This document shows, one piece after another, positions 32,655 through 60,467 of a stretch of 64,000 nt of DNA. The translations under genes were made by a program, and so were the position numbers. The notes below the pieces were generated by a model that was not told the origin of the DNA, searched no databases, and saw nothing but the letters and a program-made list of their open reading frames with translations. The stretch is taken from the NCBI RefSeq assembly GCF_014205225.1, contig NZ_JACHNB010000001.1, positions 2,337,501 through 2,401,500 on the forward strand, read 5' to 3'. Source of the stretch: Actinoplanes octamycinicus. GTDB lineage: Bacteria; Actinomycetota; Actinomycetes; Mycobacteriales; Micromonosporaceae. Numbering within the stretch: the stretch's first letter is position 1; each line of letters begins with the position of its first letter.

Positions 32655-33542
32655 TTGAGTCAAACCCTGCTGGTCACCGGTGGCGCCGGATTCGTCGGTA
32701 GTGCCCTGGTCAAGTCGCTGTTGACCGAGTTCCCCGGCGCCGCCGTGGTCTCGCTGGACAACTACTTCACCGGCAGCCCGGAGAACCACGTGCACGACCC
32801 CCGGGTGACGTACCTGGAGGGTTCCACCGCGGACCTCGCCAAGATCTGGGCGGACCGCGGGCTCCCCGCGCCGGAGCTGGTCTTCCACCTCGGTGAGTAC
32901 AGCCGGATCGTGCAGTCGTTCGAGGACCACGACCTGACCTGGGACTTCAACCTGCTGGGCACCAAAGAGGTGGTGAAGTTCGCGGCCGGCAAGGGCGCCA
33001 AGCTGATCTACGCCGGCTCCAGCTCGAAGTTCGGCAACGACGGCGACGACGAGAACCTGAACCCGTACGCCTGGACCAAGGCGAAGAACATCGAGTACAT
33101 CAAGAACTACTCGAACTGGTACGGGCTGGACTACGCGATCACGTACTTCTACAACGTCTACGGGCCGGGCCAGATCGGCAACGGCAAGTACGCCACCGTG
33201 ATCGGCATCTTCGAGCGGCAGTACCTGGCGGGCGAGCCGCTGACCGTGGTGTCGCCCGGCACGCAGACCCGCGACTTCACCCACATCGACGACATCGTGC
33301 GCGGCATCGTGCTGGTCGCCCGGGGCGGGGCCGGCGACGGCTACCTGCTCGGCACCGGCCGTGAGTGGCAGCTGGCCGACGTGGCGAAGATGTTCGGCGC
33401 CGAGATCAGGATGATCCCGGCGCTGCCCGGTGAGCGGGTGCGCGGTCAGGCCGACCTGACCAAGGCGGGCAGCCTGGGCTGGCACCCGCAGACCCAGCTC
33501 GACGACTACATCGCGAAGTTCGTGGCGGCCCACCCGCGCTGA
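32655..33542 (+). CDS. NAD-dependent sugar epimerase/dehydratase
   Basis: A 295-residue short-chain extended reductase. The NAD site is LLVTGGAGFVGSALVKSLL at the N-terminus; VFHLGEYSRIVQSFED, YAGSSSKFGN, and YAWTKAKNIEYIKNY supply the active-site Tyr-x3-Lys (YAWTK). NVYGPGQIG and RDFTHIDDIVRGI are typical of UDP-sugar 4-epimerases and dehydratases. TTG 32655 gives MSQTLLVTGG, the usual spacing before the glycine-rich loop; TTG 32643 and GTG 32598 in the same frame are alternatives, none with ideal ribosome site spacing. The product is probably an activated sugar for surface glycans; substrate unknown. Confidence 0.88.
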   Translation: MSQTLLVTGGAGFVGSALVKSLLTEFPGAAVVSLDNYFTGSPENHVHDPRVTYLEGSTADLAKIWADRGLPAPELVFHLGEYSRIVQSFEDHDLTWDFNLLGTKEVVKFAAGKGAKLIYAGSSSKFGNDGDDENLNPYAWTKAKNIEYIKNYSNWYGLDYAITYFYNVYGPGQIGNGKYATVIGIFERQYLAGEPLTVVSPGTQTRDFTHIDDIVRGIVLVARGGAGDGYLLGTGREWQLADVAKMFGAEIRMIPALPGERVRGQADLTKAGSLGWHPQTQLDDYIAKFVAAHPR

Positions 33543-33559
33543 TCGCGGCTCGTCGGTGA

Positions 33560-33677
33560 CCACCCACGGACAATGAAGGGGTCGGCGATCGCCCTGGACG
33601 CGCCAGCGGCCAGATCGCCGACCCCGGCCCGCGCGGGAGCATGCGATCTGCACCCGCGCGGACCTGCGTATATGAAG
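33560..33677 (-). ncRNA. Structured repeat element, copy A (two hairpins, candidate RNA)
   Basis: On the minus strand the element begins CTTCATATACGCAGG, 5 nt after the stop of the MFS transporter, and ends GGGTGG. Hairpin 1 is CCGCGCGGG / CCCGCGCGG (33653-33661 with 33629-33637) with a loop containing GATCGCATGCT. Hairpin 2 is GGGGTCGGCGATC / GATCGCCGACCCC (33613-33625 with 33578-33590) with loop starting TGGCCGCTGG. A second copy at 53583-53699 keeps hairpin 2 through three paired base changes. I do not recognise a named RNA family. It may be a 3'-UTR structure, a small RNA or a mobile extragenic repeat. Confidence 0.7.
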
Positions 33678-33682
33678 ATTTT

Positions 33683-35179
33683 CTAGCCGGTCGCTCGCGG
33701 CCGTGAGGTGACCGCCGAGAGCGGCGTCGCGACGTCTTCGAGAGACTTCCCCTCCGCGTCGACGCCCAGGAAGATCTCGACGATGCCGCCGATGGCCATC
33801 ACCGCCGCGCCGATCAGATAGCCGATGAACAGCTTGCCCGGGTCCTCGCCCTCGCCGATCAAGGCTCCGTAGAACACCGGCCCGATCGCGCCGAAGCACT
33901 GGGCGATCGCGAAGAACACCGCGATGGCCTGCGCCCGGATCTCCAGCGGGAAGATCTCGCTCACCGTCAGGTACGCCGAGCTGGCGCCGGCCGACGCGAA
34001 GAAGAAGATGATGCACCAGGCGATGGTCTGGGTGATCGCGTTGAGCATCCCGGCGTTGAACATGAACGCGCTGATCGCCAGCAGCACACCGGAGAGCAGA
34101 TAGGTCCCGGCGATCATCTTGCGCCGGCCGATCACGTCGAACAGGTGCCCGATGGTCAGCGGGCCGATCAGGTTGCCGGCCGCGAAAGCGATCAGGTAGA
34201 GCGGCGCGTTCTTCTCGTCCACCCCGTAGAAGTTGGTCAGCACCAGCGTGTAGGTGAAGAAGATCGCGTTGTAGAGGAACGACTGCGTGATCATCAGGGT
34301 GGCGCCGAGGATCGACCGTTGGGGCAGCTGTTTGAACAGCACCCGCAGCAGCGACAGGTAACCGTGGTCCTGGGTCGGCCGGATGTCGATCGCCTTGGAC
34401 TCGTCGACCGGCGCGAGGGTCTGCCCGGACGACTCCACGGCCTGCTCGATCTGCCGGATGTTGTCCTCCGCCTCGGCCTCCCGGCCGTGCATGATCAGCC
34501 ACCGCGGGCTCTCCGGCAGGTGCTTGCGCAGACCCCAGATGCAGGCGCCGATGATCGGCCCGATCAGGAAGCCGAGCCGCCAGCCCCAGTTCAGGTCCAT
34601 CTGGTTGAGCAGCACGAACGTGCCCAGGGTGCCGAGGATCGCGCCACCCCAGTAGGTGCCGTTGACGCCGATGTCCACCCGGCCGCGATACTTCGCCGGC
34701 ATCATCTCGTCGATCGCCGAGTTGATCGCGGCGTATTCGCCGCCGATGCCGGCGCCGGCGATGAATCTGGTGAGATACAGGAAGATGATCGCGACCACAC
34801 CGTTGCCCCAGGTCAACGCGGTCAGAGCGTTGCCGACCAGGTAGACGCCGAGGGTCACGATGAAGAGGTTCTTGCGGCCGAGTTTGTCCGAGAGCCGGCC
34901 GAAGAACAGCGCGCCGAACACCTCGCCGAGCAGGTAGACGGTCGCGATCGCACCGACCTGGGTGCTGCTCAGCGCGAGGGTTTCCTTTTCGGTCAGCACC
35001 GGACCGATCGCGCTGGCGATGGTGATCTCCAGGCCGTCGAGCACCCACGCGGTGCCGAGCGCCAGGATCATTCGGGTGTGGAACGGGGACCAGCTCAGCC
35101 GGTCGATACGTGCGGGGATCAGGCTCCGGATCGTTCCTGCGTCGCCGGCCGGGGCGGGAGATCCCAGACTCTGCGCCAT
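33683..35179 (-). CDS. MFS transporter, sugar/organic-acid porter type
   Basis: A 498-residue twelve-segment transporter. Motifs: GRLSDKLGRKNLFI between segments 2 and 3, FIAGAGIGGEYAAINSAIDEMMPAKYRGR, LPESPRWLI after segment 6, and DVIGRRKMIAG between 8 and 9, which are features of the sugar porter/metabolite:H+ symporter group. ATG 35179 has GGAGG 8 nt upstream; an earlier ATG at 35212 lacks this. Divergent from a Gfo/Idh/MocA oxidoreductase at 35247, so the two may share a polyol or inositol-like substrate. Repeat element copy A follows its stop directly. Confidence 0.9.
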   Translation of the reverse strand: MAQSLGSPAPAGDAGTIRSLIPARIDRLSWSPFHTRMILALGTAWVLDGLEITIASAIGPVLTEKETLALSSTQVGAIATVYLLGEVFGALFFGRLSDKLGRKNLFIVTLGVYLVGNALTALTWGNGVVAIIFLYLTRFIAGAGIGGEYAAINSAIDEMMPAKYRGRVDIGVNGTYWGGAILGTLGTFVLLNQMDLNWGWRLGFLIGPIIGACIWGLRKHLPESPRWLIMHGREAEAEDNIRQIEQAVESSGQTLAPVDESKAIDIRPTQDHGYLSLLRVLFKQLPQRSILGATLMITQSFLYNAIFFTYTLVLTNFYGVDEKNAPLYLIAFAAGNLIGPLTIGHLFDVIGRRKMIAGTYLLSGVLLAISAFMFNAGMLNAITQTIAWCIIFFFASAGASSAYLTVSEIFPLEIRAQAIAVFFAIAQCFGAIGPVFYGALIGEGEDPGKLFIGYLIGAAVMAIGGIVEIFLGVDAEGKSLEDVATPLSAVTSRPRATG

Positions 35180-35246
35180 GGGGTGGACCTCCAGTGTCGT
35201 GATGTAGCTCACGCATTACCCACCGTGCCGCCTACCATGCACAGAC

Positions 35247-49723: not shown

Positions 49724-49771
49724 ACACACCATCTGGCGTTGCGTGGACGGTGTCGTGCCCATATATAGTCT
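49724..49771 (+). promoter_or_regulatory. Candidate tandem NrdR boxes and nrdAB promoter
   Basis: Two 16-bp segments, 49724-49739 (ACACACCATCTGGCGT) and 49756-49771 (TGCCCATATATAGTCT), partly match the NrdR consensus ACACWATATATWGTGT and are spaced 32 bp start to start, the known NrdR box spacing. TATAGT (49764-49769) within the second serves as a likely -10. NrdR is known to repress both RNR operons in Streptomyces. The match is imperfect, so this is a moderate call. Confidence 0.5.
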
Positions 49772-49782
49772 CGATCGCAGCT

Positions 49783-49957
49783 GGTTCGGCCGCTCCCCGG
49801 GAGCGTCCGAGGCAAGAGGGAATCCGGTGTGAGACCGGGACTGCCCCGCAGCGGTGAGTGGGAACGACCGCCGTCATCGAGCACTGGACCGTGAGGTCTG
49901 GGAAGCGACGGCCAGTAGGTTCTTTCGAGAGCGCCCACGAGTCCGAAGACCTGCCAG
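49783..49957 (+). promoter_or_regulatory. Adenosylcobalamin (B12) riboswitch upstream of nrdAB
   Basis: The leader contains the full series of B12-riboswitch blocks: GAGGGAATCCGGTGTGAG (from 49815), GGGACTGCCCCGCAGCGGTGA, GAGCACTGGACC, GGGAAGCGACGGCCAGTAGG, and the 3' block AGTCCGAAGACCTGCC ending near 49955. In streptomycetes a B12 riboswitch shuts off the class Ia RNR operon so that the cobalamin-dependent class II enzyme is used when B12 is present; the same logic is expected here. A later hairpin CTTCCCGCG / CGCGAGGGAAG (50058-50085) can cover the ribosome site of nrdA, suggesting translational control (inference). Confidence 0.93.
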
Positions 49958-50091
49958 CGCGCCGCACGCGACCGTGTGCGGCGGTCGAAGGCCGCGTGGG
50001 ACGGCCGACGCCTTCGTTGCCGCCGTGCGCCCACGCGCCCGGCGGGCAGTGTGGTGTCTTCCCGCGCGCCGACTCGCGAGGGAAGAGGGCC

Positions 50092-52578
50092 ATGACGCTC
50101 ACGCCGGAGAGAAGCCCGGAAAAGAGCCCGGAGAACAGTCCGGAGAAGGGCCCGGAGAACAGTCCGGAAAAGAGCCCGGAGAGTAGCCCGGTAAAGAATC
50201 CGGAGAACAGCCCGGGAACGGGCCTGGACGCGAGCCCGCAGACGACAACCGTCCCGGGGCAGCGCCGGCAGGTCATGCGGGTGCGCAAGCGCAACGGCGA
50301 GCTGACGCCGGTCGACGTCAACCGGATCGTCGCGGCCGTGGAGCGCTGGATCACCGGGCTGGACGAGGTCGATCCGCTGCGCGTGGCGACCCGGACGATC
50401 AGCGGGCTCTACGACGGTGCCACCACCGAGGAGCTGGACAAACTCTCGATTCAGACGGCCGCTGAGCTGATCGGCGAGGAGCCGCAGTACTCCAGGCTGG
50501 CCGCCCGGCTGCTGATCGACCTGGTCACCCAGGAGGTCCGCGAGCACGGCGTCACCCGCTTCAGCGAGTCGATCGCGCTCGGCCACGAGCAGGGCCTGAT
50601 CAGCGACGACACGCTGGCCTTCGTCACCAGGTTCCGGTCCGAACTGGACGCCGCGATCGATCCGGCCAACGACCTCCGGTTCGAGTATTTCGGCCTCCGC
50701 ACGGTGGCCGACCGCTACCTCCTCAAGCACCCGACGAAGCGCACCCCGCTGGAGACCCCGCAGTACTGGCTGCTCCGCGTCGCCTGCGGCCTGTCCCGCA
50801 CCCCGGACGAGGCGATCGGCTTCTATCGGCTGATCTCCAGCCTGGCCTATCTGCCCAGCTCACCGACCCTGTTCAACTCCGGCACCCGGCACACGCAGAT
50901 GTCCTCGTGCTTCCTGGTCGACTCGCCCAAGGACGAGCTGGACTCGATCTACGAGCGGTACCACCAGGTCGCCAAGCTGTCGAAGTTCTCCGGGGGCATC
51001 GGCATCGCCTGGTCCCGGGTCCGCGGCCGGGGCGCGCTGATCCGCGGCACCAACGGCCGGTCGAACGGCATCGTCCCGTTCCTGAAGACGCTGGACGCCG
51101 GGGTCGCCGCGGTCAACCAGGGCGGCCGGCGCAAGGGTGCGGCCTGCGTCTACCTGGAGCCGTGGCACCCGGACATCGAGGAGTTCCTGGAGCTGCGCGA
51201 CAACACCGGCGAGGACTCCCGGCGTACCCATAATCTGAATCTGGCCAACTGGATCCCGGACGAGTTCATGCGCCGGGTGGAGGCCGACGAGGACTGGCAT
51301 CTCATCGACCCTTCGGACGCGCCGGAGCTGCCCGACCTGTTCGGCGAGGAGTTCACGGAGGCGTACCGGAAAGCCTCGGTGAAAGCGGTTAAAACGGTCA
51401 AGGCCCGGGACCTCTACGGGCGGATGATGCGGACGCTGGCGCAGACCGGCAACGGCTGGATGACCTTCAAGGACCGGTCGAACGCGCTCTCCAACCAGAC
51501 CGGCGCGCCCGGCAACACCATCCACCTGTCCAACCTGTGCACCGAGATCCTCGAGGTGAACAGCGACGACGAGACGGCCGTCTGCAACCTCGGCTCGATC
51601 AACCTGGGCGCGCACACCACGGCCGACGGGGTGGACTGGGAGCGGCTGCGGGCGACCGTGCGCACCGCGGTGGTCTTCCTGGACCGGGTGATCGACATCA
51701 ACTACTACCCGTCGGTGCAGGCCGCCGCGTCGAACCCGCGGTGGCGCCCGGTCGGGCTGGGGCTGATGGGGCTGCAGGACGCGTTCTTCACGCTGAAGCT
51801 GCCGTTCGACTCGGCCGCGGCCAAGGAGCTGTCCACCCGGGTGCAGGAGGAGATCCTGCTGACCGCGCTGGAGACGTCGGCCGGGCTGGCCGCCGAGTTC
51901 GGGCCGCACCCGGCGTACCCGCAGACCCGGGCCGCGGCCGGTCGCCTGCACCCCGAGCTGTGGGGCGCGCCGCTCGGCCAGCCGACCCGCTGGGCCGCGG
52001 TGAAGGAGCGGATCGCGGCGCACGGTCTCCGCAACTCGCTGCTGGTCGCGATCGCGCCGACCGCCACGATCGCGTCGATCGCCGGCTGCTACGAGTGCAT
52101 CGAGCCGCAGGTCTCCAACCTGTTCAAGCGGGAAACCATGTCCGGCGAGTTCCTCCAGGTCAACACCTATCTGGTGGCCGAGCTGAAGGCGCGCGGCCGG
52201 TGGACGCCCGAGATCCGGGAGGCGATCAAACGGGCCGAGGGTTCGGTCCAGGACATCGCCGGCCTGCCGGCCGAGATCAAGGACCTTTTCCGTACGGCCT
52301 GGGAGCTGCCGCAGCGTGCGCTGATCGACCTGGCCGCCGCCCGGGCGCCGTTCATCGACCAGTCACAGTCGCTGAACCTGTTCCTGGCCGCGCCGACCAT
52401 CGGCAAACTGTCGTCGATGTACCTCTACGCCTGGAAGTCCGGGCTGAAGACCAGCTATTACCTCCGCTCCCGCCCGGCGACGCGGATCCAGCAGGCCACC
52501 GTCTCGGTGATCCCGGCGCTCACCCCGGCCGAGGTCTGCTCCCTGGAAAACCCCGAATCGTGTGAGGCGTGCCAGTAA
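50092..52578 (+). CDS. nrdA: Class Ia ribonucleotide reductase large subunit
   Basis: An 828-residue subunit reducing ribonucleoside diphosphates. After an unusual N-terminal tail of about 60 residues, an ATP-cone begins at residue 62 (MRVRKRNGELTPVDVNRIVAAVERW). The catalytic barrel has TLFNSGTRHTQMSSCFLVD, GIGIAWSRVRGRGALIRGTNG, NLCTEILEVN, ETAVCNLGSINL and ATIASIAGCYECIEPQ. The tail ends ESCEACQ with the redox Cys pair. Residues 5-44 are ten tetrapeptides of SPEK/SPEN type from a 12-bp minisatellite. ATG 50092 has GAGGGAAGAGGG upstream; ATG 50275, at the start of the ATP-cone, is a weaker alternative. Confidence 0.95.
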   Translation: MTLTPERSPEKSPENSPEKGPENSPEKSPESSPVKNPENSPGTGLDASPQTTTVPGQRRQVMRVRKRNGELTPVDVNRIVAAVERWITGLDEVDPLRVATRTISGLYDGATTEELDKLSIQTAAELIGEEPQYSRLAARLLIDLVTQEVREHGVTRFSESIALGHEQGLISDDTLAFVTRFRSELDAAIDPANDLRFEYFGLRTVADRYLLKHPTKRTPLETPQYWLLRVACGLSRTPDEAIGFYRLISSLAYLPSSPTLFNSGTRHTQMSSCFLVDSPKDELDSIYERYHQVAKLSKFSGGIGIAWSRVRGRGALIRGTNGRSNGIVPFLKTLDAGVAAVNQGGRRKGAACVYLEPWHPDIEEFLELRDNTGEDSRRTHNLNLANWIPDEFMRRVEADEDWHLIDPSDAPELPDLFGEEFTEAYRKASVKAVKTVKARDLYGRMMRTLAQTGNGWMTFKDRSNALSNQTGAPGNTIHLSNLCTEILEVNSDDETAVCNLGSINLGAHTTADGVDWERLRATVRTAVVFLDRVIDINYYPSVQAAASNPRWRPVGLGLMGLQDAFFTLKLPFDSAAAKELSTRVQEEILLTALETSAGLAAEFGPHPAYPQTRAAAGRLHPELWGAPLGQPTRWAAVKERIAAHGLRNSLLVAIAPTATIASIAGCYECIEPQVSNLFKRETMSGEFLQVNTYLVAELKARGRWTPEIREAIKRAEGSVQDIAGLPAEIKDLFRTAWELPQRALIDLAAARAPFIDQSQSLNLFLAAPTIGKLSSMYLYAWKSGLKTSYYLRSRPATRIQQATVSVIPALTPAEVCSLENPESCEACQ
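50104..50223 (+). repeat. 12-bp minisatellite in the 5' end of nrdA
   Basis: Ten degenerate copies of a 12-bp unit (consensus CCGGAGAACAGC) encode P-E-[KN]-S-type tetrapeptides in frame. It lies between the riboswitch leader and the ATP-cone coding region. Confidence 0.85.
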
Positions 52579-53573
52579 TGTTGCTCGATCCCGGAATGGA
52601 CCTGACCCTGCGGCCGATGAAGTATCCGCACTTCTTCGACCGGTTCAAGGACGCCATCAAGAACACCTGGACGGTCGAGGAGGTCGACCTGCACGGTGAC
52701 CTGGCCGACCTGGCCACCCTGTCGGACGCGGAGAAGCACCTGGTCAGCCGGCTGGTGGCGTTCTTCGCCACCGGCGACACGATCGTCGCGAACAACCTGG
52801 TGCTCAACCTCTATCAGCACGTCAACTCCCCGGAGGGCCGGCTCTATCTGTCCCGGCAGCTGTTCGAGGAGGCGGTGCACGTCCAGTTCTACTTGAATCT
52901 GCTGGACACCTATGTGCCGGATCTGGACGAGCGCGCGGCCGCTTTCGCCGCCGTCGACAACATTCCGTCGATCGCGCGCAAGGCGGAGTTCTGTTTCAAA
53001 TGGATCGACTCGATCTTCGAGCTGCGAGCCCTGTCCTCCAAGGCGGACCGGCGGGCGTTCCTGCTCAACGTGATCTGCTTCGCGGCGTGCATCGAGGGGC
53101 TGTTCTTCTACGGCGCCTTCGCCTACGTCTATTTCCTGCGGTCCCGCGGTTTGCTGCAGGGTCTGGCGTCCGGCACCAACTGGGTGTTCCGTGACGAGAG
53201 CATGCACATGGCGTTCGCTTTCGACGTGGTCGACCAGGTGCGCCGCGAGGAGCCGGACCTGTTCGACGCGGACATGGAGCAGCAGGTCCGGGAGATGCTC
53301 GCCGAGGCCGTGGAGTGCGAGGTGCAGTTCGCCGCCGACCTGCTGGAACAGGGGGTGAGCGGGATGTCGCTGGGCGACATGCGGGAGTACCTGCAGCACG
53401 TCGCCGACCGGCGCCTCCAGGCGCTGGGCATCGCGCCGGTCTACGGCAGCAAGAATCCGTTCGCGTTCATGGAGCTGCAGGACGTCCAGGAATTGTCGAA
53501 CTTCTTCGAGCGCCGCGTCTCCGCCTACCAGGTGGGAGTTTCCGGCAGCGTCACCTTCGACGACGATTTTTAA
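52578..53573 (+). CDS. nrdB: Class Ia ribonucleotide reductase small (radical) subunit
   Basis: A 331-residue di-iron protein that makes the radical for NrdA. Metal ligands and radical site are visible: Asp in FFATGDTIVANNL, E-x2-H followed three residues later by Tyr in LFEEAVHVQFY (radical Tyr position retained), Glu in CIEGLFFYGAF, and the FRDESMHMAF ligand helix. The C-terminal GSVTFDDDF tail is the NrdA-docking peptide. ATG 52578 shares its A with the nrdA stop (TAATG); the in-frame GTG 9 nt earlier is less likely. No nrdS-like third gene follows. Confidence 0.96.
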   Translation: MLLDPGMDLTLRPMKYPHFFDRFKDAIKNTWTVEEVDLHGDLADLATLSDAEKHLVSRLVAFFATGDTIVANNLVLNLYQHVNSPEGRLYLSRQLFEEAVHVQFYLNLLDTYVPDLDERAAAFAAVDNIPSIARKAEFCFKWIDSIFELRALSSKADRRAFLLNVICFAACIEGLFFYGAFAYVYFLRSRGLLQGLASGTNWVFRDESMHMAFAFDVVDQVRREEPDLFDADMEQQVREMLAEAVECEVQFAADLLEQGVSGMSLGDMREYLQHVADRRLQALGIAPVYGSKNPFAFMELQDVQELSNFFERRVSAYQVGVSGSVTFDDDF

Positions 53574-53582
53574 ATTCAGGAC

Positions 53583-53699
53583 CTTCATATACGCAGGCCC
53601 AGCGGGGTGCGGATCGCATGCTCCCGCGCGGGCCGAGGGCGGAGATCTGGCCGCTGCGCGTCCACAACGATCTCCGCCCTCTTCATTGTCCGCGGGTGG
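53583..53699 (+). ncRNA. Structured repeat element, copy B (two hairpins, candidate RNA)
   Basis: Begins CTTCATATACGCAGG 9 nt after the nrdB stop and ends GGGTGG. Hairpin 1 (GCGGGG around loop TGCGGATCGCATGCT and CCCGC) is less perfect than in copy A. Hairpin 2 is GAGGGCGGAGATC (53635-53647) with GATCTCCGCCCTC (53669-53681), differing from copy A at three pairs, each changed on both strands. The conserved loop TGGCCGCTG-CGCGTCCA and tail CTTCATTGTCCG(C/T)GGGTGG are the same in both. Family unknown to me. Confidence 0.7.
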
Positions 53700-53715
53700 T
53701 TGCGGAAAAGGAAAA

Positions 53716-53748
53716 CCCGGGACCGGTCTCCGGTCCCGGGCTTCTTCT
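53716..53748. terminator. Bidirectional terminator after nrdB
   Basis: CCCGGGACCGG and CCGGTCCCGGG form a perfect 11-bp stem with loop TCT, preceded by AAAAGGAAAA and followed by CTTCTTCT, so it can act from both sides for nrdAB and the convergent gene at 53748. Confidence 0.85.
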
Positions 53749-54524
53749 CAGGCGCGGCGGCGGCGCCGGGTCAGGGAGAAACCGAACAGGCCGGTCAGGG
53801 CGGCGAGGATGCCGCCGCCGGCGGTCCAGAACCAGCGGCCGGAGAAGTCCGGCAGCCAGTCCATGCTGAAGCTGCTCTCCTCGACCTCCGCGGACGGCGA
53901 CGCCGACGGCGCCGGACCGGTCAGCACCGTGCCGGGCTGGTTGTTCGGAACCAGCGGCTTGGCCAGTTCGCCCTGGTCGGCGTCGAGGTCACCCTTCTCG
54001 GCGGTCAGCGTCAGGCGCACCTTGAGCGGCAGGCCGAGGTCCGCCTCCGGCACCTTGGTGCTGGACAGCCGCACGTAGTAGGTGCCCGGCAGCGGATCGC
54101 CGTCCTGCGGCTCGGCCCACGACCGGACCTGCCGGATCCGGCAGCCGAGCGTCACCTGCGCCGCGTCCCGGGCCGCCACCGGGCTCTGCTCGCCGGCCAC
54201 GCAGGCCTGCCGGCGGCGCAACCCGTCGAAGACCTCGATGATCCACGACTCGTCGCCGGTGCGGCCGTCGGCGGGCAGGGTGACCGACGCGGCCAGGTCC
54301 GGGCGCTGGCCGGCCTCCGCGGTGAACTGCCAGTACAGGTAGTCGCCGGTGACCGCGCCGACCTCGACCGGCTGGTTCGCGGTGATCGCCACGGCGGTCA
54401 GGAACGAGGTCCCGGCGGTCTTCACCGGGGCGATCGGCTGCGGGTCGTCGGCGAACGCCGGCGCCGGCACGGCCGCGATGCCGAAGATCGCGGCACCGGC
54501 CAGCGCGAGGTGCTTGATCCTCAT
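53748..54524 (-). CDS. Exported membrane-anchored protein, partner of VWA protein
   Basis: A 258-residue protein. Signal peptide MRIKHLALAGAAIFGIAAVPA, cleavage after AFA. The extracellular part resembles the C-terminal half of the upstream VWA protein (ANQPVEVGAVTGDYLYWQFTAEAGQRPDLAASVTLP ... GTYYVRLSST), a beta-sandwich of pre-peptidase type. A Ser/Pro linker and a membrane anchor (WFWTAGGGILAALTGLFGFSL) end in RRRRRA. ATG overlaps the stop of the VWA gene by 1 bp, so they are co-translated. Function unknown; probably forms a surface complex with it. Confidence 0.8.
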   Translation of the reverse strand: MRIKHLALAGAAIFGIAAVPAPAFADDPQPIAPVKTAGTSFLTAVAITANQPVEVGAVTGDYLYWQFTAEAGQRPDLAASVTLPADGRTGDESWIIEVFDGLRRRQACVAGEQSPVAARDAAQVTLGCRIRQVRSWAEPQDGDPLPGTYYVRLSSTKVPEADLGLPLKVRLTLTAEKGDLDADQGELAKPLVPNNQPGTVLTGPAPSASPSAEVEESSFSMDWLPDFSGRWFWTAGGGILAALTGLFGFSLTRRRRRA

Positions 54525-55822
54525 CAGTTCTCCCTCCAGGTGGCCACCCAGTACCGGGTGATCCAGCCGGCCAGCACGCCGGCGACCAGCCCGGCGATCG
54601 CCAGGACCAGCAGGAACAGGAAGCCGCGGCCGAGGCCGGGGGCGTCCGGCGCGTGCGACGCGTCGACCAGGTCGATGCTCAGCTCGACCGGCATGCCCGG
54701 CCCGGCCGCGGTCACGGCCGCCGCGAAGGAGTTGCTGACGATCAGGCACAGCTCGGTGGCGGAGTCGGCCGGCTCGTCCGCGTCGTCCGCGTCCGCCGCG
54801 TCGGCCGACGCCTTGGCGTCCGCCTTCTGCTCGTCGGCCGACCAGCGCAGACCTGCGGACAGCACGTCCGCGCGCCCGCTGCCCGCGTCCACGCCGCGGA
54901 CCAGCTCCCGGCCGTCCCTGCTCGCGGCTTTCAGGAGCACCCCGTAGTCCGGGTTCAGCGCCCGGTCGAGCGAGATGCTCACCGAGGCCCGCAGCTCCTG
55001 GCCGGGCTGCACGGCCACCCGGTAGAAGCGGTGCTCGCTGATCTTCTCCCGGTCGGTGTAGACGCCCGGGGCGAGCAGCGGCGCGTTGGTGCAGTCGGCG
55101 GTGCCGGTGACCACGGCCGGCTGCACCGGCGGCGGCACCGCGGCCCGGTCGACCAGTTGCTGCACCCGGTCGGTCAGCTCCTCCTCGCTCTTCGCCGCGG
55201 CGTAGGTGCCGCCGGTCGCGGTGGAGATGCAGACCAGCTGCTTGCGGGTCTTCTCGTCAGGGGTCAGGCCGAGCGTGTCGACGACCAGGTGGGTGCCCTG
55301 TGCGGCCAGCTCGCGGGCCACCTCGCACGGGTCCGGCGGGGTGCAGGTGTCCTCGCCGTCGGTGATCAGGACGATCCGCCGTACCGAGCCGGTGTCGCCG
55401 AGGTCCTCGGCGGCCTTCTTCAGCGCCAGGCCGATCGGGGTGTACCCGGTCGGCTTCAGGGTGGCGATCGCGTTCTTGGCCTGGACCGCGTTGACCGGCC
55501 CGACCGGGACGATCTGCTGGGTGTCCTTGCAGGCGATCTTCTTGTTCTTGCCGGGATAGGTGGCGCCGAGCACCCGGATGCCGAGCTGCGTGTTCTCCGG
55601 CAGCGCGTCGACCACCTTGTTGAAGGCGCGCTTGGCCACCGCGATCCGGGTCTCGCCGTCGATGTCGGCGGCGCGCATCGAGCCGCTGACGTCGAGGACC
55701 AGCTCAACGCGGGGTGGTTCGGAGGTTTCGGTCTCGTCGGCGTACGCCGGGGCGGCGCCGAACAGGGTGGCGGCACCGATCAATCCAGTCGCCACCACTA
55801 TGGACAGACTTTTGTGGATCAC
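54524..55822 (-). CDS. Exported von Willebrand factor A domain protein
   Basis: A 432-residue surface protein. Signal peptide MIHKSLSIVVATGLIGAATLFG, cleavage after AYA. The VWA domain (about 38-215) has the metal site DVSGSM, a Thr in PTGYTPIGLAL and ITDGEDTC. A beta-sandwich domain follows (LLAPGVYTDREKISEHRFYRVAVQPGQELRASVSISL), then an Ala/Asp-rich linker and a C-terminal membrane segment (GFLFLLVLAIAGLVAGVLAGWI). Metal-dependent binding of a protein partner is the usual role. Paired with the gene at 53748. Confidence 0.88.
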   Translation of the reverse strand: MIHKSLSIVVATGLIGAATLFGAAPAYADETETSEPPRVELVLDVSGSMRAADIDGETRIAVAKRAFNKVVDALPENTQLGIRVLGATYPGKNKKIACKDTQQIVPVGPVNAVQAKNAIATLKPTGYTPIGLALKKAAEDLGDTGSVRRIVLITDGEDTCTPPDPCEVARELAAQGTHLVVDTLGLTPDEKTRKQLVCISTATGGTYAAAKSEEELTDRVQQLVDRAAVPPPVQPAVVTGTADCTNAPLLAPGVYTDREKISEHRFYRVAVQPGQELRASVSISLDRALNPDYGVLLKAASRDGRELVRGVDAGSGRADVLSAGLRWSADEQKADAKASADAADADDADEPADSATELCLIVSNSFAAAVTAAGPGMPVELSIDLVDASHAPDAPGLGRGFLFLLVLAIAGLVAGVLAGWITRYWVATWREN

Positions 55823-56722: not shown

Positions 56723-57442
56723 ATGTCCGCCGGACCAGACTTCGCGCCGCGCTACTTCCGCATCGAGCAGGAACTCCGAGCGCGGATCGCCAAGGCGCGG
56801 CCACACGATCCGCTGCCCTCCGAGCCGGAGCTGGCCCGCGAGTTCGGGGTGAGCCGGATGACCGCCCGGGCCGCGGTCACCCAGCTGGTGAACGACGGGT
56901 TGGCGTACCGAGCGCCCGGCCGCGGCACGTTCGTGGCGGTGCCCACCGGGCCGCGCCGCGCGGACAACCTGATCCGGCTCAGCGAGGAGATCCGCAAGCA
57001 GGGCAAGGTCCCGTCGTCCCGGGTGGTCAGCGCCGAGCTGCGGCCGGCCACCGTGATCGAGGCCACCCGGCTGCGGCAGCGGGCCGGCGACGTGGTGGCG
57101 ATCTACCGGGTCCGGCAGGCCGACGGCGACCCGTTCGCCTTCGAGCACGCCTGCTATCCGGGGGTGCTCAGCGCGCTGCTCGACTTCGACCTCTCCGGGT
57201 CGGTGCACGAGGCGCTGGTCGCGCTCGGCCGGGTGCCGACCCGCGGCACCTCGACGATCACCGCGCAGCCGGCGAACGAGGAGGACGCCAAGGAGCTGGG
57301 CGTGCCGGTCGGCAGCGCGCTGCTGGTCGAGGAGCGGCTGATCCTGGACCAGGAGGGCCGTCCGCTGGAGCTGAGCGAGTCCCGTTACGACGGCACCAAG
57401 TACCGCCTGGACGTCGCCTTCGGCGTCGAGCCCCACCAGTAA
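56723..57442 (+). CDS. GntR-family regulator, HutC subfamily
   Basis: A 239-residue regulator. The winged helix (about 12-72) reads YFRIEQELRARIAKARPHDPLPSEPELAREFGVSRMTARAAVTQLVNDGLAYRAPGRGTFVA. The UTRA effector domain (about 90-235) includes RQRAGDVVAIYRVRQADGDPFAFEHACYPG and LLVEERLILDQEGRPLELSESRYDGTKYRLDV, typical of phosphosugar-binding members. Divergent from deoC across two CTGTCTAGACAG sites; probably an autoregulating repressor of deoC. A near copy of its last 29 bp recurs after the GC-rich repeat at 57686-57714. Confidence 0.93.
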   Translation: MSAGPDFAPRYFRIEQELRARIAKARPHDPLPSEPELAREFGVSRMTARAAVTQLVNDGLAYRAPGRGTFVAVPTGPRRADNLIRLSEEIRKQGKVPSSRVVSAELRPATVIEATRLRQRAGDVVAIYRVRQADGDPFAFEHACYPGVLSALLDFDLSGSVHEALVALGRVPTRGTSTITAQPANEEDAKELGVPVGSALLVEERLILDQEGRPLELSESRYDGTKYRLDVAFGVEPHQ

Positions 57443-57853
57443 ACCGGTCGGCCGCCCGACGTGGCCTGACCCGGCCCGACCCGGCCCGACGCCGCGCGGC
57501 CTGACCCGGCCCGGCGCGGCCTGACCCGGCCCGGCCCGACGCGGCGCGGCCTGACCCGGCCCGGCCCGACGCGGCCTGACCCGGCCCGACGCGGCGCGGC
57601 CTGACCCGGCCCGGCCCGACGCGGCGCGGCCTGGCCTGGCTCGGCGCGGCCTGGCTCGACCCGGTCCGGGTGGCGTCGTCTCGGTGCCGCACCAGTAAAT
57701 CGGTCGGCCGCCCGGCCTCGTTCCGGGTAGCGTCGTCGCCGTGCCGAACCAGTTCTACCTCTGAGCTTCCCCGAGCCGGCCCGCTGAGCGCATCGCGCCG
57801 CGGGTGGCTCGCCGCTGTCCATCCGCAGCCCTCAGCTCAGGGGAAGAATCGGC
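57443..57853. repeat. GC-rich tandem repeat array and duplicated gene tail
   Basis: No gene. From about 57460 to 57661 the sequence is a degenerate tandem array built on units such as GCGGCCTGACCCGGCCCG and CGACGCG, 20-35 bp each. On either side, 57430-57458 (end of the GntR gene, GCCCCACCAGTAAACCGG...) and 57686-57714 are near-identical, and a third partial copy is at about 57721-57752. The region before the ABC-F gene (57755-57853) holds its ribosome site GGGGAAGAATCGGC. Confidence 0.85.
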
Positions 57854-60007
57854 ATGCCTGTCACCATCACTCTGCCCGCGCGCGCCCGCGCCCAACTCGT
57901 CGCCACCGGAATCCGCGCCGACCGCGCCGGTCTGTCCAATCTGGCTCTCACCGTCTCGCCCGGCTCCCGCTGGGGGATCGTCGGCGAGAACGGCCGCGGC
58001 AAGACCACCCTGCTACGGGTGCTCAGCGGCACCCTGCCCCCGGACGCCGGCGAGGTCCGGCTCACCGGCACCCTCGGTGTCGCCGACCAGGAACTCTCCT
58101 TCGCCCCGGGCGAAACGGTCGGCACCCTGATCGAGGCCGCGCTCGCTGACGCCCGTGCTGCGCTGTTCGCCCTCGACGAGGCAGCTCAGGCGCTCGCCGG
58201 CGCCTATTCCGACCCGGGCCACGATCACGTCGGGTCGTTCACCCGCGATCGGTCCGGCGCGGGCGACGGTGATGCCGGGTCGTTCACCCGCGATCGATCC
58301 GGCGCGGACGGTGGTTATGCCGGGTCGCTGGCCGGTGATCGGTCCAGTGCAACCGATGGTTATGCCGGGCCGTTCGCCGGCGGTCTCTCCGGTGCGGGTG
58401 ACGATTACGCCCGGGCGCTTGACGCGGTCGAGCTGCTCGACGCCTGGGATGCCGATCGCCGGATCGACCTCGCGCTGGAGCAGCTCGGCGCGGTCACCGA
58501 CCGGGACCGGCTGTTGGCCACGCTCTCGGTCGGTCAGCGCTACCGGGTCCGGCTGGCCTGCCTGCTCGGCGCCACCCACGACTTCCTGCTGCTCGACGAG
58601 CCGACCAACCACCTGGATGCCGACGGCCTCGACTTCCTCACCGCCCGGCTGCGGTCACATCCCGGCGGGGTGGTCCTGGTCAGCCACGACCGAGCGCTGC
58701 TGCGTGACGTGACCACCACGATCCTGGACCTGGACCCCACAGTGGACGGGCGCCCGGCTGTCTACGGTGGCGGCTATCCCGGCTACCAGGCCGGCCGGGC
58801 CGCCGCATTGGCCCGCTGGGAGCAAACCTACGAGCAGCAGACCGCGACGGCGAAACGTCTCGCCGAGGAGCTGACCGGCGCGCAGGACCGCCTGGTCACC
58901 GGCTGGCGCCCGGACAAGGGGACCGGCCGGCACAAGCGGGCCACCCGCGCACCGGGCCTGGTCCGCTCGGTGCACCGCCGCCAGGACGAACTGCTCCGCC
59001 ACGCGGTCACCGCCCCGCAGCCCCCGGGCCGCTTCCGGATGCCTTCGCTGCCGGCGATCCCCGGCCGCGCTTTGCTGACCGCCGACCGTCTCCAGCTGAC
59101 CGGCCGCCTCCGAACCCCGGTGACCCTGACCCTCAATTCCGGCTCCCGCCTGCTGATAACGGGCCCGAACGGCACCGGCAAGTCAACCCTGCTATCCCTC
59201 CTGGCAGGCCTACTGACCCCAACCGCCGGCGCCGCAACCCACCCCACCGATATCCGAATCGCCCTCCTCACCCAGGAATCTCCGTCAGACACGCCGTCCG
59301 AAAAGTCCCGATCAGCCATGCTGTCCGAGGACTCCCGGCTGGCCACGTCGGCCACGGACTCCCGGCTGGTCACGTCGGCCGAGGGCTCCTGGTTGGCCGC
59401 GTCGGCCACGGACTCCCGGCTGGTCACGTCGGCCGAGGGCTCCTGGCTGGCCGCGTCGGCCGAGGACTCCCGGCTGGTCACGTCGGCCGAGGGCTCCTGG
59501 TTGGCCGCGTCGGCCGAGGGCTCCCGGTTGGCCGCGTCGTCCGAGGACTCCCGGGTGGTCACATCGGCCGAGGACTCCCGGCTGGTCATGTCGTCCGAGA
59601 AGTCTCAGTCAGTCTCGTCGTCCGAGGCCTCTGGGCCGATCACTTCGTCCGAGGTGAACGCCACCGGGCATCGATCCGCAGGCAATTCCCACCGGGCGTC
59701 GGCGAACCGCTCCGGCGATCCGACCTCCCTGGCACCGATCGAACTCGGACTGCTGACCGCAAGTGATCTCGACCGCCCGGCCCACCGGCTGTCGATGGGC
59801 CAGCGGCGGCGGCTGGACCTGGCGTCGCTGCTCGCCGCCGAGCCCCACGTGCTGCTGCTCGACGAACCCACCAATCACTTGTCGATCACCCTGGTCGACG
59901 AACTGACCGAAGCCCTCCTGCACACCCCCGCGGCAGTCGTCGTCGCCACCCACGACCGCCAGCTGCTCAAGGACCTGAGCTCCTGGCCCCAACTGAACCT
60001 GGCCTGA
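57854..60007 (+). CDS. ABC-F family ATPase with repeat insertions in both cassettes
   Basis: A 717-residue soluble protein with two ABC cassettes and no membrane segment, so of the ABC-F translation-factor/antibiotic-resistance type. Cassette 1: Walker A GENGRGKTT near 40, signature LSVGQRYRVRLA near 224, Walker B LLLDEPTNHLDADG. Linker about 315-390 is charged. Cassette 2: Walker A GPNGTGKST near 436, signature LSMGQRRRLDLA at 646, Walker B LLLDEPTNHLS. In cassette 1, residues 127-186 are four copies of a 15-residue repeat (GSFTRDRSGAGDGDA type). In cassette 2, residues 481-597 are thirteen 9-residue repeats (SATDSRLVT/SAEGSWLAA types). Both replace the stretch between Walker A and signature. 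Ribosome protection is likely; target unknown. Confidence 0.88.
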   Translation: MPVTITLPARARAQLVATGIRADRAGLSNLALTVSPGSRWGIVGENGRGKTTLLRVLSGTLPPDAGEVRLTGTLGVADQELSFAPGETVGTLIEAALADARAALFALDEAAQALAGAYSDPGHDHVGSFTRDRSGAGDGDAGSFTRDRSGADGGYAGSLAGDRSSATDGYAGPFAGGLSGAGDDYARALDAVELLDAWDADRRIDLALEQLGAVTDRDRLLATLSVGQRYRVRLACLLGATHDFLLLDEPTNHLDADGLDFLTARLRSHPGGVVLVSHDRALLRDVTTTILDLDPTVDGRPAVYGGGYPGYQAGRAAALARWEQTYEQQTATAKRLAEELTGAQDRLVTGWRPDKGTGRHKRATRAPGLVRSVHRRQDELLRHAVTAPQPPGRFRMPSLPAIPGRALLTADRLQLTGRLRTPVTLTLNSGSRLLITGPNGTGKSTLLSLLAGLLTPTAGAATHPTDIRIALLTQESPSDTPSEKSRSAMLSEDSRLATSATDSRLVTSAEGSWLAASATDSRLVTSAEGSWLAASAEDSRLVTSAEGSWLAASAEGSRLAASSEDSRVVTSAEDSRLVMSSEKSQSVSSSEASGPITSSEVNATGHRSAGNSHRASANRSGDPTSLAPIELGLLTASDLDRPAHRLSMGQRRRLDLASLLAAEPHVLLLDEPTNHLSITLVDELTEALLHTPAAVVVATHDRQLLKDLSSWPQLNLA
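58232..58411 (+). repeat. 45-bp minisatellite in ABC-F cassette 1
   Basis: Four tandem 45-bp copies (15 residues each), in frame, starting GGGTCGTTCACCCGCGATCG. Copies 1 and 2 are nearly identical and copies 3 and 4 more diverged. Confidence 0.85.
59294..59644 (+). repeat. 27-bp minisatellite in ABC-F cassette 2
   Basis: Thirteen tandem 27-bp units (9 residues each), in frame. Inner units alternate between TCGGCC-AC-GGACTCCCGG-type and TCGGCCGAGGGCTCCTGG-type, giving a 54-bp higher-order unit near 59344-59500. Confidence 0.88.
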
Positions 60008-60467
60008 CCCCCGCAGCAACCAACGGCGGCCCCGCTCCGCGCCCGCCGATTCGACCGACATGTCCGCTGGCCGAGCCGAACACCGCTATGCGCCCGTCGG
60101 CCCGGCCAACGGAATGTTGGTCTGTCAGCGGGATGTCGGTCCGGTCAACGGGATGCTGGTCCGTCAGCGGGATGTTGGTCTGTCAGCGGGATGTCGGTCC
60201 GGTCAACGGGATGCTGGTCCGTCAGCGGGATGTTGGTCTGTCAGCGGGATGTCGGTCCGGTCAACGGGATGCTGGTCTGCCAGCGGGATGCTGGTCCGTC
60301 AGCGGGACATCGGTCCGGCCAACAGGATGTCGATGCAACGCCTCGACCCCAAGCAGCGCCCGCGCCACCCAATGCGGCCCGCGCCAGTCACGATGCCGAG
60401 CCAATCTCCGCGGTGCCGGGTGATCGACCGCGCCGAGCCGCGCGCTGGCTGATCACCCGGGCGGGGC
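60008..60467. repeat. Non-coding 58-bp higher-order tandem repeat array
   Basis: No gene. From about 60115 to 60335 the sequence repeats a 58-bp unit made of three related 19-20-bp monomers (GGGATGTTGGTCTGTCAGC, GGGATGTCGGTCCGGTCAAC, GGGATGCTGGTCCGTCAGC). Three full units and partial ends are present. Because 58 is not a multiple of three, the open frames crossing it change phase each unit and are not credible genes. Confidence 0.88.
60416..60460 (-). terminator. Hairpin after the 60468 gene
   Basis: CCGGGTGATC and GATCACCCGG form a perfect 10-bp stem with a 25-nt loop just downstream of the minus-strand stop codon. No T run, so a weak call. Confidence 0.5.

Follow-up and report, generated by a model that had tools for sequence, protein, structure and literature searches.

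The two inverted repeat copies in the window, by which the whole analyzed stretch of 64,000 nt is meant, belong to a large family of folded repeats of roughly 120 nt, which lie behind genes in the host genome and in its relatives. One strand of the repeat is selected to fold, as RNA or as single-stranded DNA, and in the host an IS110-family element has made one exact position of the repeat its landing site. The reading that is moderately favored is a high-copy, extragenic, non-autonomous interspersed element of the genus that resembles REP/BIME elements and whose single-strand fold would serve its own spread.

Two Repeat Copies in the Window

The window lies within a single-contig genome of 10.28 Mb (G000). 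The repeat copies, their parts and their neighbors are the following:

33559..33677, plus strand: repeat copy A, reading GACCACCC..TATATGAAG on the folding strand; 138.6 bits with the covariance model (G000:C1:2371059-2371177)
33578..33625, plus strand: stem 2 of copy A, arms 33578-33590 and 33613-33625, 4-nt bulge at 33591-33594, apical hairpin between
33625..33640, plus strand: unoccupied counterpart of the IS110 target site in copy A (CGGCCCGC-GC-GGGAGC), from comparison of copy A with the IS flanks
53583..53701, minus strand: repeat copy B, read on the folding strand; 131.1 bits with the covariance model
53635..53681, minus strand: stem 2 of copy B, arms 53681-53669 and 53647-53635
53620..53635, minus strand: unoccupied counterpart of the IS110 target site in copy B, from comparison of copy B with the IS flanks
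53708..53740, minus strand: terminator-like hairpin and T-tract, read in the sequence between a minus-strand gene and copy B (L180, one of the 17 of 101 copies flagged for such a hairpin)
32655..33542, plus strand: NAD-dependent epimerase gene, upstream of copy A on the folding strand
33683..35212, minus strand: MFS/sugar transporter gene, convergent with the epimerase gene
52596..53573, plus strand: nrdB, ribonucleotide reductase small chain, neighbor of copy B
53748..54749, minus strand: gene without a Pfam match, upstream of copy B on the folding strand (start at 54524 according to the codon-usage caller)

The initial annotation had described two copies in opposite orientation, close to stop codons and with three stem differences that are compensated on both arms. 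The orientation was borne out by an alignment over 119 nt, with a one-base offset at the ends and one loop indel, and the two copies form the longest inverted repeat in the window (arms of 74 nt at 88% and 45 nt at 84%). They end 6–10 nt from the stop codons of the MFS gene (33683) and of nrdB (53573), and the three differences are present, each altered on both arms. For each copy and each strand, the folding energy beats at least 197 of 200 dinucleotide shuffles. Template switching at hairpins can alter both arms at once, and therefore two copies alone are no proof of selection. A small open reading frame through the copies was ruled out, because the loop indel breaks the frame.

The window also contains a cobalamin riboswitch upstream of ribonucleotide reductase genes (49765-49972, 92.8 bits) and a ZMP/ZTP riboswitch shortly after 23S and 5S rRNA genes (2862-2952, 49.6 bits). 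A 12-nt tandem repeat at 50092-50247 encodes a PENSPEKS-like peptide close to where the large reductase frame begins, and three further tandem repeat arrays are found at 57435-57704, 59217-59654 and 60049-60329, with spacings of about 10, 27 and 19-20 nt.

Copy Number and Distribution

The repeat had been described as a two-copy element, which turned out to be a large underestimate. A BLAST search with copy B yielded at least 42 places at E<=10 (from the best 40 of 198 candidates scored), the last of which (E 0.165) was the copy's own reverse. A covariance model was built from 24 copies, and it gave at least 119 matches in the host genome, split halves included (best 150 of 31,639 candidates scored). 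Of these, 28 are full copies scoring above 80 bits, many are halves next to IS insertions, and others are weaker places. Among the weaker places, 18 of the 19 that were read belong to a second subfamily, and 5 of 20 further stretches contain one more repeat each. Expressed as lower bounds, the host has at least 28 full copies, at least 23 copies of the second subfamily and more than 30 copies that are cut in two.

The initial annotation had proposed a search of related genomes as a check; many more copies near stop codons do exist. The model matched 17 of 23 other genomes of the genus and none of 16 genomes of other families, and two closer species had 92 and 80 matches. Among 60 other genomes drawn from the same family, one of the two same-genus genomes was matched, and weak matches (E 2e-5 to 8e-4) occurred in six genomes of five other genera; two of these out-of-genus matches were read (L390, L391) and have kept the 3′ part, not the apical motif. 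A 14-mer scan of genome contigs was discarded as too short, since the matches listed look like chance ones in unrelated organisms. Three places (L200, L216, L389) harbor relatives with other tips or without the apical motif, and thus represent further subfamilies in the genus.

Structure, Covariation and the Selected Strand

Stem 2 starts with 13 pairs, followed by a bulge of 4 nt in its 5′ arm; next come a T-A pair, two G-C pairs and an A·G mismatch, and the tip reads CGC-GYCA-GCG. In the alignment of 24 copies its covariation score was 0.279 compared to a shuffled mean of 0.093, and none of 500 shuffles scored as high. In 38 cells both sides had changed (10.8 on average in the shuffles), 98% of the cells pair, and the signal was lost when the partners were slid by 1–3 columns. 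The covariation suspected from two copies is thus real in a larger alignment. In a wider set of 88 copies, with one spurious row left aside, the A·G mismatch was replaced by A-T or G-C in nine. The asymmetric bulge and the tip are conserved across the copies, and the copy alignment contains no U-tract after the stem. No Rfam family reached its gathering score over the copies, and relaxed searches gave chance-level matches only. Outside of stem 2 the forward and reverse consensus folds score alike, each being better in some groups. At three places (L192, L232, and L245, the last of them downstream of nrdB in G067) the apical loop contains another hairpin sequence, as though the tip itself served as an insertion site.

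A count of wobble pairs was used to decide which strand folds. From 137 copies, 10 without the motif and 29 identical to others were left aside, and a strand-neutral rule was applied to the remaining 98 unique copies. The inner nine pairs of stem 2 comprise 806 Watson-Crick, 54 G·U, 1 A·C and 21 other cells. An earlier count of 74 versus 4 (88 unique copies, 13 pairs) was not relied on, because its inclusion rule favored Watson-Crick pairs; it also held one spurious match and misregistered outer pairs. Outside of the arms there is no excess of C>T (26/2,271) over G>A (45/2,198). A duplex site, a cruciform or repair by template switching predict as many A·C as G·U, since a G·U on one strand reads as an A·C on the other. 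Selection therefore acts on the folding of one strand, be it as RNA or as single-stranded DNA, and both fit equally well. It is the strand opposite to the one on which the initial annotation had drawn the fold. The one-sided wobble does not extend beyond stem 2, and no replication-strand bias was found (79 places, p 0.82, with the origin assumed at coordinate 1). Single-strand selection can thus be distinguished from the mere maintenance of a palindrome simply by comparing the numbers of G·U and A·C. From the earlier proposal of a candidate new RNA, the covarying fold and the lack of an Rfam family stand; as far as the sequence can tell, the hairpin may equally well be that of a mobile repeat folding as single-stranded DNA.

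An IS110 Element That Inserts Into the Repeat

Many copies in the host break off at GGCCCGC and then run into one common sequence, the start of an insertion sequence. This start was found at no fewer than 34 places (best 40 of 112 candidates scored), of which 24 are identical over 92 nt, five over 91 nt and five at 96%. In 32 of the 34 cases the model matched a left half of the repeat within 100 nt of the IS start; at the remaining two, a reading of one place showed a degraded left half, and the other has a right-half match only. The insertion position, CGGCCCGC / GGGAGC, was identical in all 22 places read from the at least 34, with 22 distinct left and 22 distinct right flanks. The IS has a length of 1,427 nt in all 28 loci with both ends, some of these loci overlapping, and in G067 the orthologue of one occupied locus (L168) has the intact site. 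Its protein contains the domains DEDD_Tnp_IS110 (PF01548, 8e-22) and Transposase_20 (PF02371, 7.8e-22). At E<=1e-120 the transposase is present in at least 31 copies in the host and absent from G067. Relatives with 57–72% identity occur in 14 of 60 other genomes, and at the 25 of their loci that were read no repeat is found at the IS end. Two apparent matches near such relatives were discounted, one (L450) because it lies inside the transposase gene and one short-site match (L433) because it is about 380 nt away.

The IS gene is preceded by a noncoding region of 236 nt, in which four segments were recognized by eye: first the left target flank, second the complement of its right counterpart, third a stretch that resembles the right end of the IS, and last the complement of the left end. 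The core bases of this pairing are not fully settled, with target CG versus CT in one guide. The same order of guides is described for the bridge RNA of IS621 in the available part of PMC11208160. A candidate bridge RNA with guides matching the site thus probably directs the IS to the repeat. The insertion of IS110 elements into REPs as such is already known (excerpts of PMC1525189 and PMC11208160). At two places (L190, G000:C1:7272577-7272690; L193, G000:C1:4893802-4893920; both near 1500-1620), IS110 left-end bases GCGCTACTTAGCGATCC replace the usual GGGAGCAT, like the same scar twice.

Turnover Between Species

For a comparison between species, 30 nrdB loci were fetched, of which 25 were readable after the stop codon. 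A copy follows nrdB in the host and in G051, a copy with an insert in its tip in G067, and a copy of the other subfamily in reversed orientation in G015. The other 21 readable loci have no copy in the stretch inspected (up to 230 nt). Two of these copy-less loci, in G022 and G013, have the same neighbor gene, and several have other neighbors.

In G067 and G051, 33 of 72 loci match stretches of the host genome over at least 250 nt. Ten pairs were aligned: seven are of the same subfamily (one of them G067 versus G051), and in the remaining three the subfamilies differ while the orientation is unchanged. In G067 a counterpart of copy A occupies the same place in the same orientation, and copy B has one in G051 and an interrupted one in G067; many copies may therefore simply be inherited. 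The intergenic flanks of the aligned orthologous pairs have diverged, and for this reason neither exact ends nor target duplications could be defined. In G067 a second hairpin repeat, often arrayed, lies directly 5′ of 20 of 57 motif matches; in G051 it was found at none of 16 (a few of the loci overlap).

Genomic Placement and Possible Explanations

The copies favor the 3′ ends of genes. With a simple codon-usage gene caller 126 of 137 copies could be classified, while 10 lacked a call on one side; 75 lie between convergent genes, 26 in tandem sense, 21 in tandem antisense and 4 in divergent position. The window's own adjacent calls serve as a comparison (25 ++, 10 +-, 10 -+ and 7 --). One of the 137 copies overlaps a gene call, and thus the repeat is extragenic and multicopy.

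The reading of a REP/BIME-like element, which was somewhat preferred, is backed by the many copies across the genus, the covariation and the one-sided wobble. It is also backed by the turnover, that is by presence, absence and reversal at the nrdB site, the exchange of subfamilies at three orthologous sites and the mosaic in G067, and by the 22 left and 22 right IS110 flanks at one position together with the intact orthologous site in G067. The initial annotation had itself named a mobile extragenic family as an alternative, and this is the best fit. As the covariation and the one-sided wobble show, a long hairpin forms on one defined strand, bulged by 4 nt in its 5′ arm and topped by a conserved apical hairpin. 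This fold, as single-stranded DNA during copying or as RNA, would serve the element's own spread with an enzyme supplied in trans, and selection would leave copies behind gene ends, mostly between convergent genes. In the host the IS110 element has taken the repeat as its target, probably via a bridge RNA with site-matching guides, if it functions like that of IS621. Several points speak against a mobile element of this kind: no mobilizing enzyme was found (Y1 search in eight element-bearing genomes), ends and target duplications are not definable, the replication-strand bias that some single-strand transposons would show is missing, and the one-sided wobble is confined to stem 2.

Alternatively, the repeat could be a structured RNA used by the host, a transcribed 3′-end element that stabilizes or ends messages or binds a protein via its apical hairpin. 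The selection of one strand, the conserved asymmetric bulge and tip, and an upstream gene that runs in the same direction in 101 of 126 cases (75+26) would fit to such a role. In tandem pairs, however, there is no orientation preference (26 versus 21, p 0.56), which argues against an obligate role in 3′-UTRs and for a role at the level of the element. In addition, a terminator-like hairpin lies within 75 nt directly 5′ of 17 of the 101 copies with a same-direction upstream gene, compared to 1 of 26 other copies and 1–5 of 101 in shuffles, and read-through into the repeat may thus be limited there. Taking also into account that its presence changes between species and that no U-tract follows the stem, a host RNA appears rather unlikely. 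It is tempting to speculate about a new class of actinobacterial mobile elements that would spread via their own folded RNA, or strand-specific single-stranded DNA, with a non-RAYT enzyme, and would double as a platform for bridge-RNA transposons, yet this far-reaching proposal is unlikely to hold in full.

A very unlikely explanation is a retro-type element, whose folded RNA with a TTGATC-rich 3′ end would be copied back into DNA. The one-strand fold and the different subfamilies in the same orientation at three orthologous sites are compatible with it, and TTGATCTTGA occurs 65 times in the genome versus 0 for the reversed control; 16 of these sites adjoin model matches and 5 of 20 others read adjoin further copies, but most of the 20 are not beside a repeat. 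Finally, a double-stranded palindrome (a gyrase or nucleoid-protein site or a cruciform) kept perfect by template switching and devoid of a single-strand role is highly improbable in view of the 54 G·U versus 1 A·C, where equal numbers are predicted, in spite of the convergent, 3′-end location and of the binding of such proteins to E. coli REPs, which is hinted at in part of PMC2817692.

Comparison With Known Systems

In the open-access papers searched, including the accessible parts of the surveys PMC12306157 and PMC2267715, no description of the repeat was found. Structured RNAs in Rfam have a covarying strand-specific fold in common with it, but no family matches. MITEs are miniature non-autonomous transposons that are short, non-coding and dispersed. 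The repeat is likewise short, non-coding and dispersed, but in contrast to MITEs no terminal inverted repeats or target duplications are apparent in it, and its ends are not exactly defined.

The repeat resembles REP/BIME elements with RAYT transposases (PMC2817692, in the parts available): like them it is extragenic, is present in tens to hundreds of copies, forms a strand-specific hairpin and is a target of IS110. Mosaic arrangements exist in one relative, G067, with hairpin arrays beside 20 of 57 motif matches; pairs of copies in opposite orientation occur at some loci, and most copies are solitary. In contrast to REPs, the unit of about 119 nt has a long bulged stem and a 3′ module. A tetranucleotide of the GTAG/GTGG type before the stem is absent from the alignments of both subfamilies, the conserved sequence there being GTGAAG or GTCGCC. 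No RAYT was recognized: PF01797 is missing from six of eight element-bearing genomes, and of the five matches in the host the four that were read are IS200/IS605-like; further matches lie in G002 and G013. Membership in the REP/RAYT system was therefore rejected. From the tip of an E. coli REP given in part of PMC11208160, GACGCGCCAGCGTC recurs in 4 of 137 copies of the repeat and ACGCGCCAGCG in 83 of 137, but 5 of 1,500 random hairpins match this 14-letter identity, and thus the likeness is a lead only. The family adds REP-like repeats without a recognized REP transposase, which raises the question of what else spreads and keeps such hairpins.

The IS resembles IS621 and other IS110 elements in its transposase domains, in one fixed target within an extragenic hairpin repeat (PMC11208160 and PMC1525189, in the parts available), and in a noncoding RNA region before the gene with target-like and then donor-like guide segments. 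It differs in host and target, and its pairing is predicted from the sequence by eye. It represents a natural case of an IS110 element with a site-matching noncoding RNA that has placed more than 30 copies into a multicopy extragenic site, with an intact orthologous site in a sister species.
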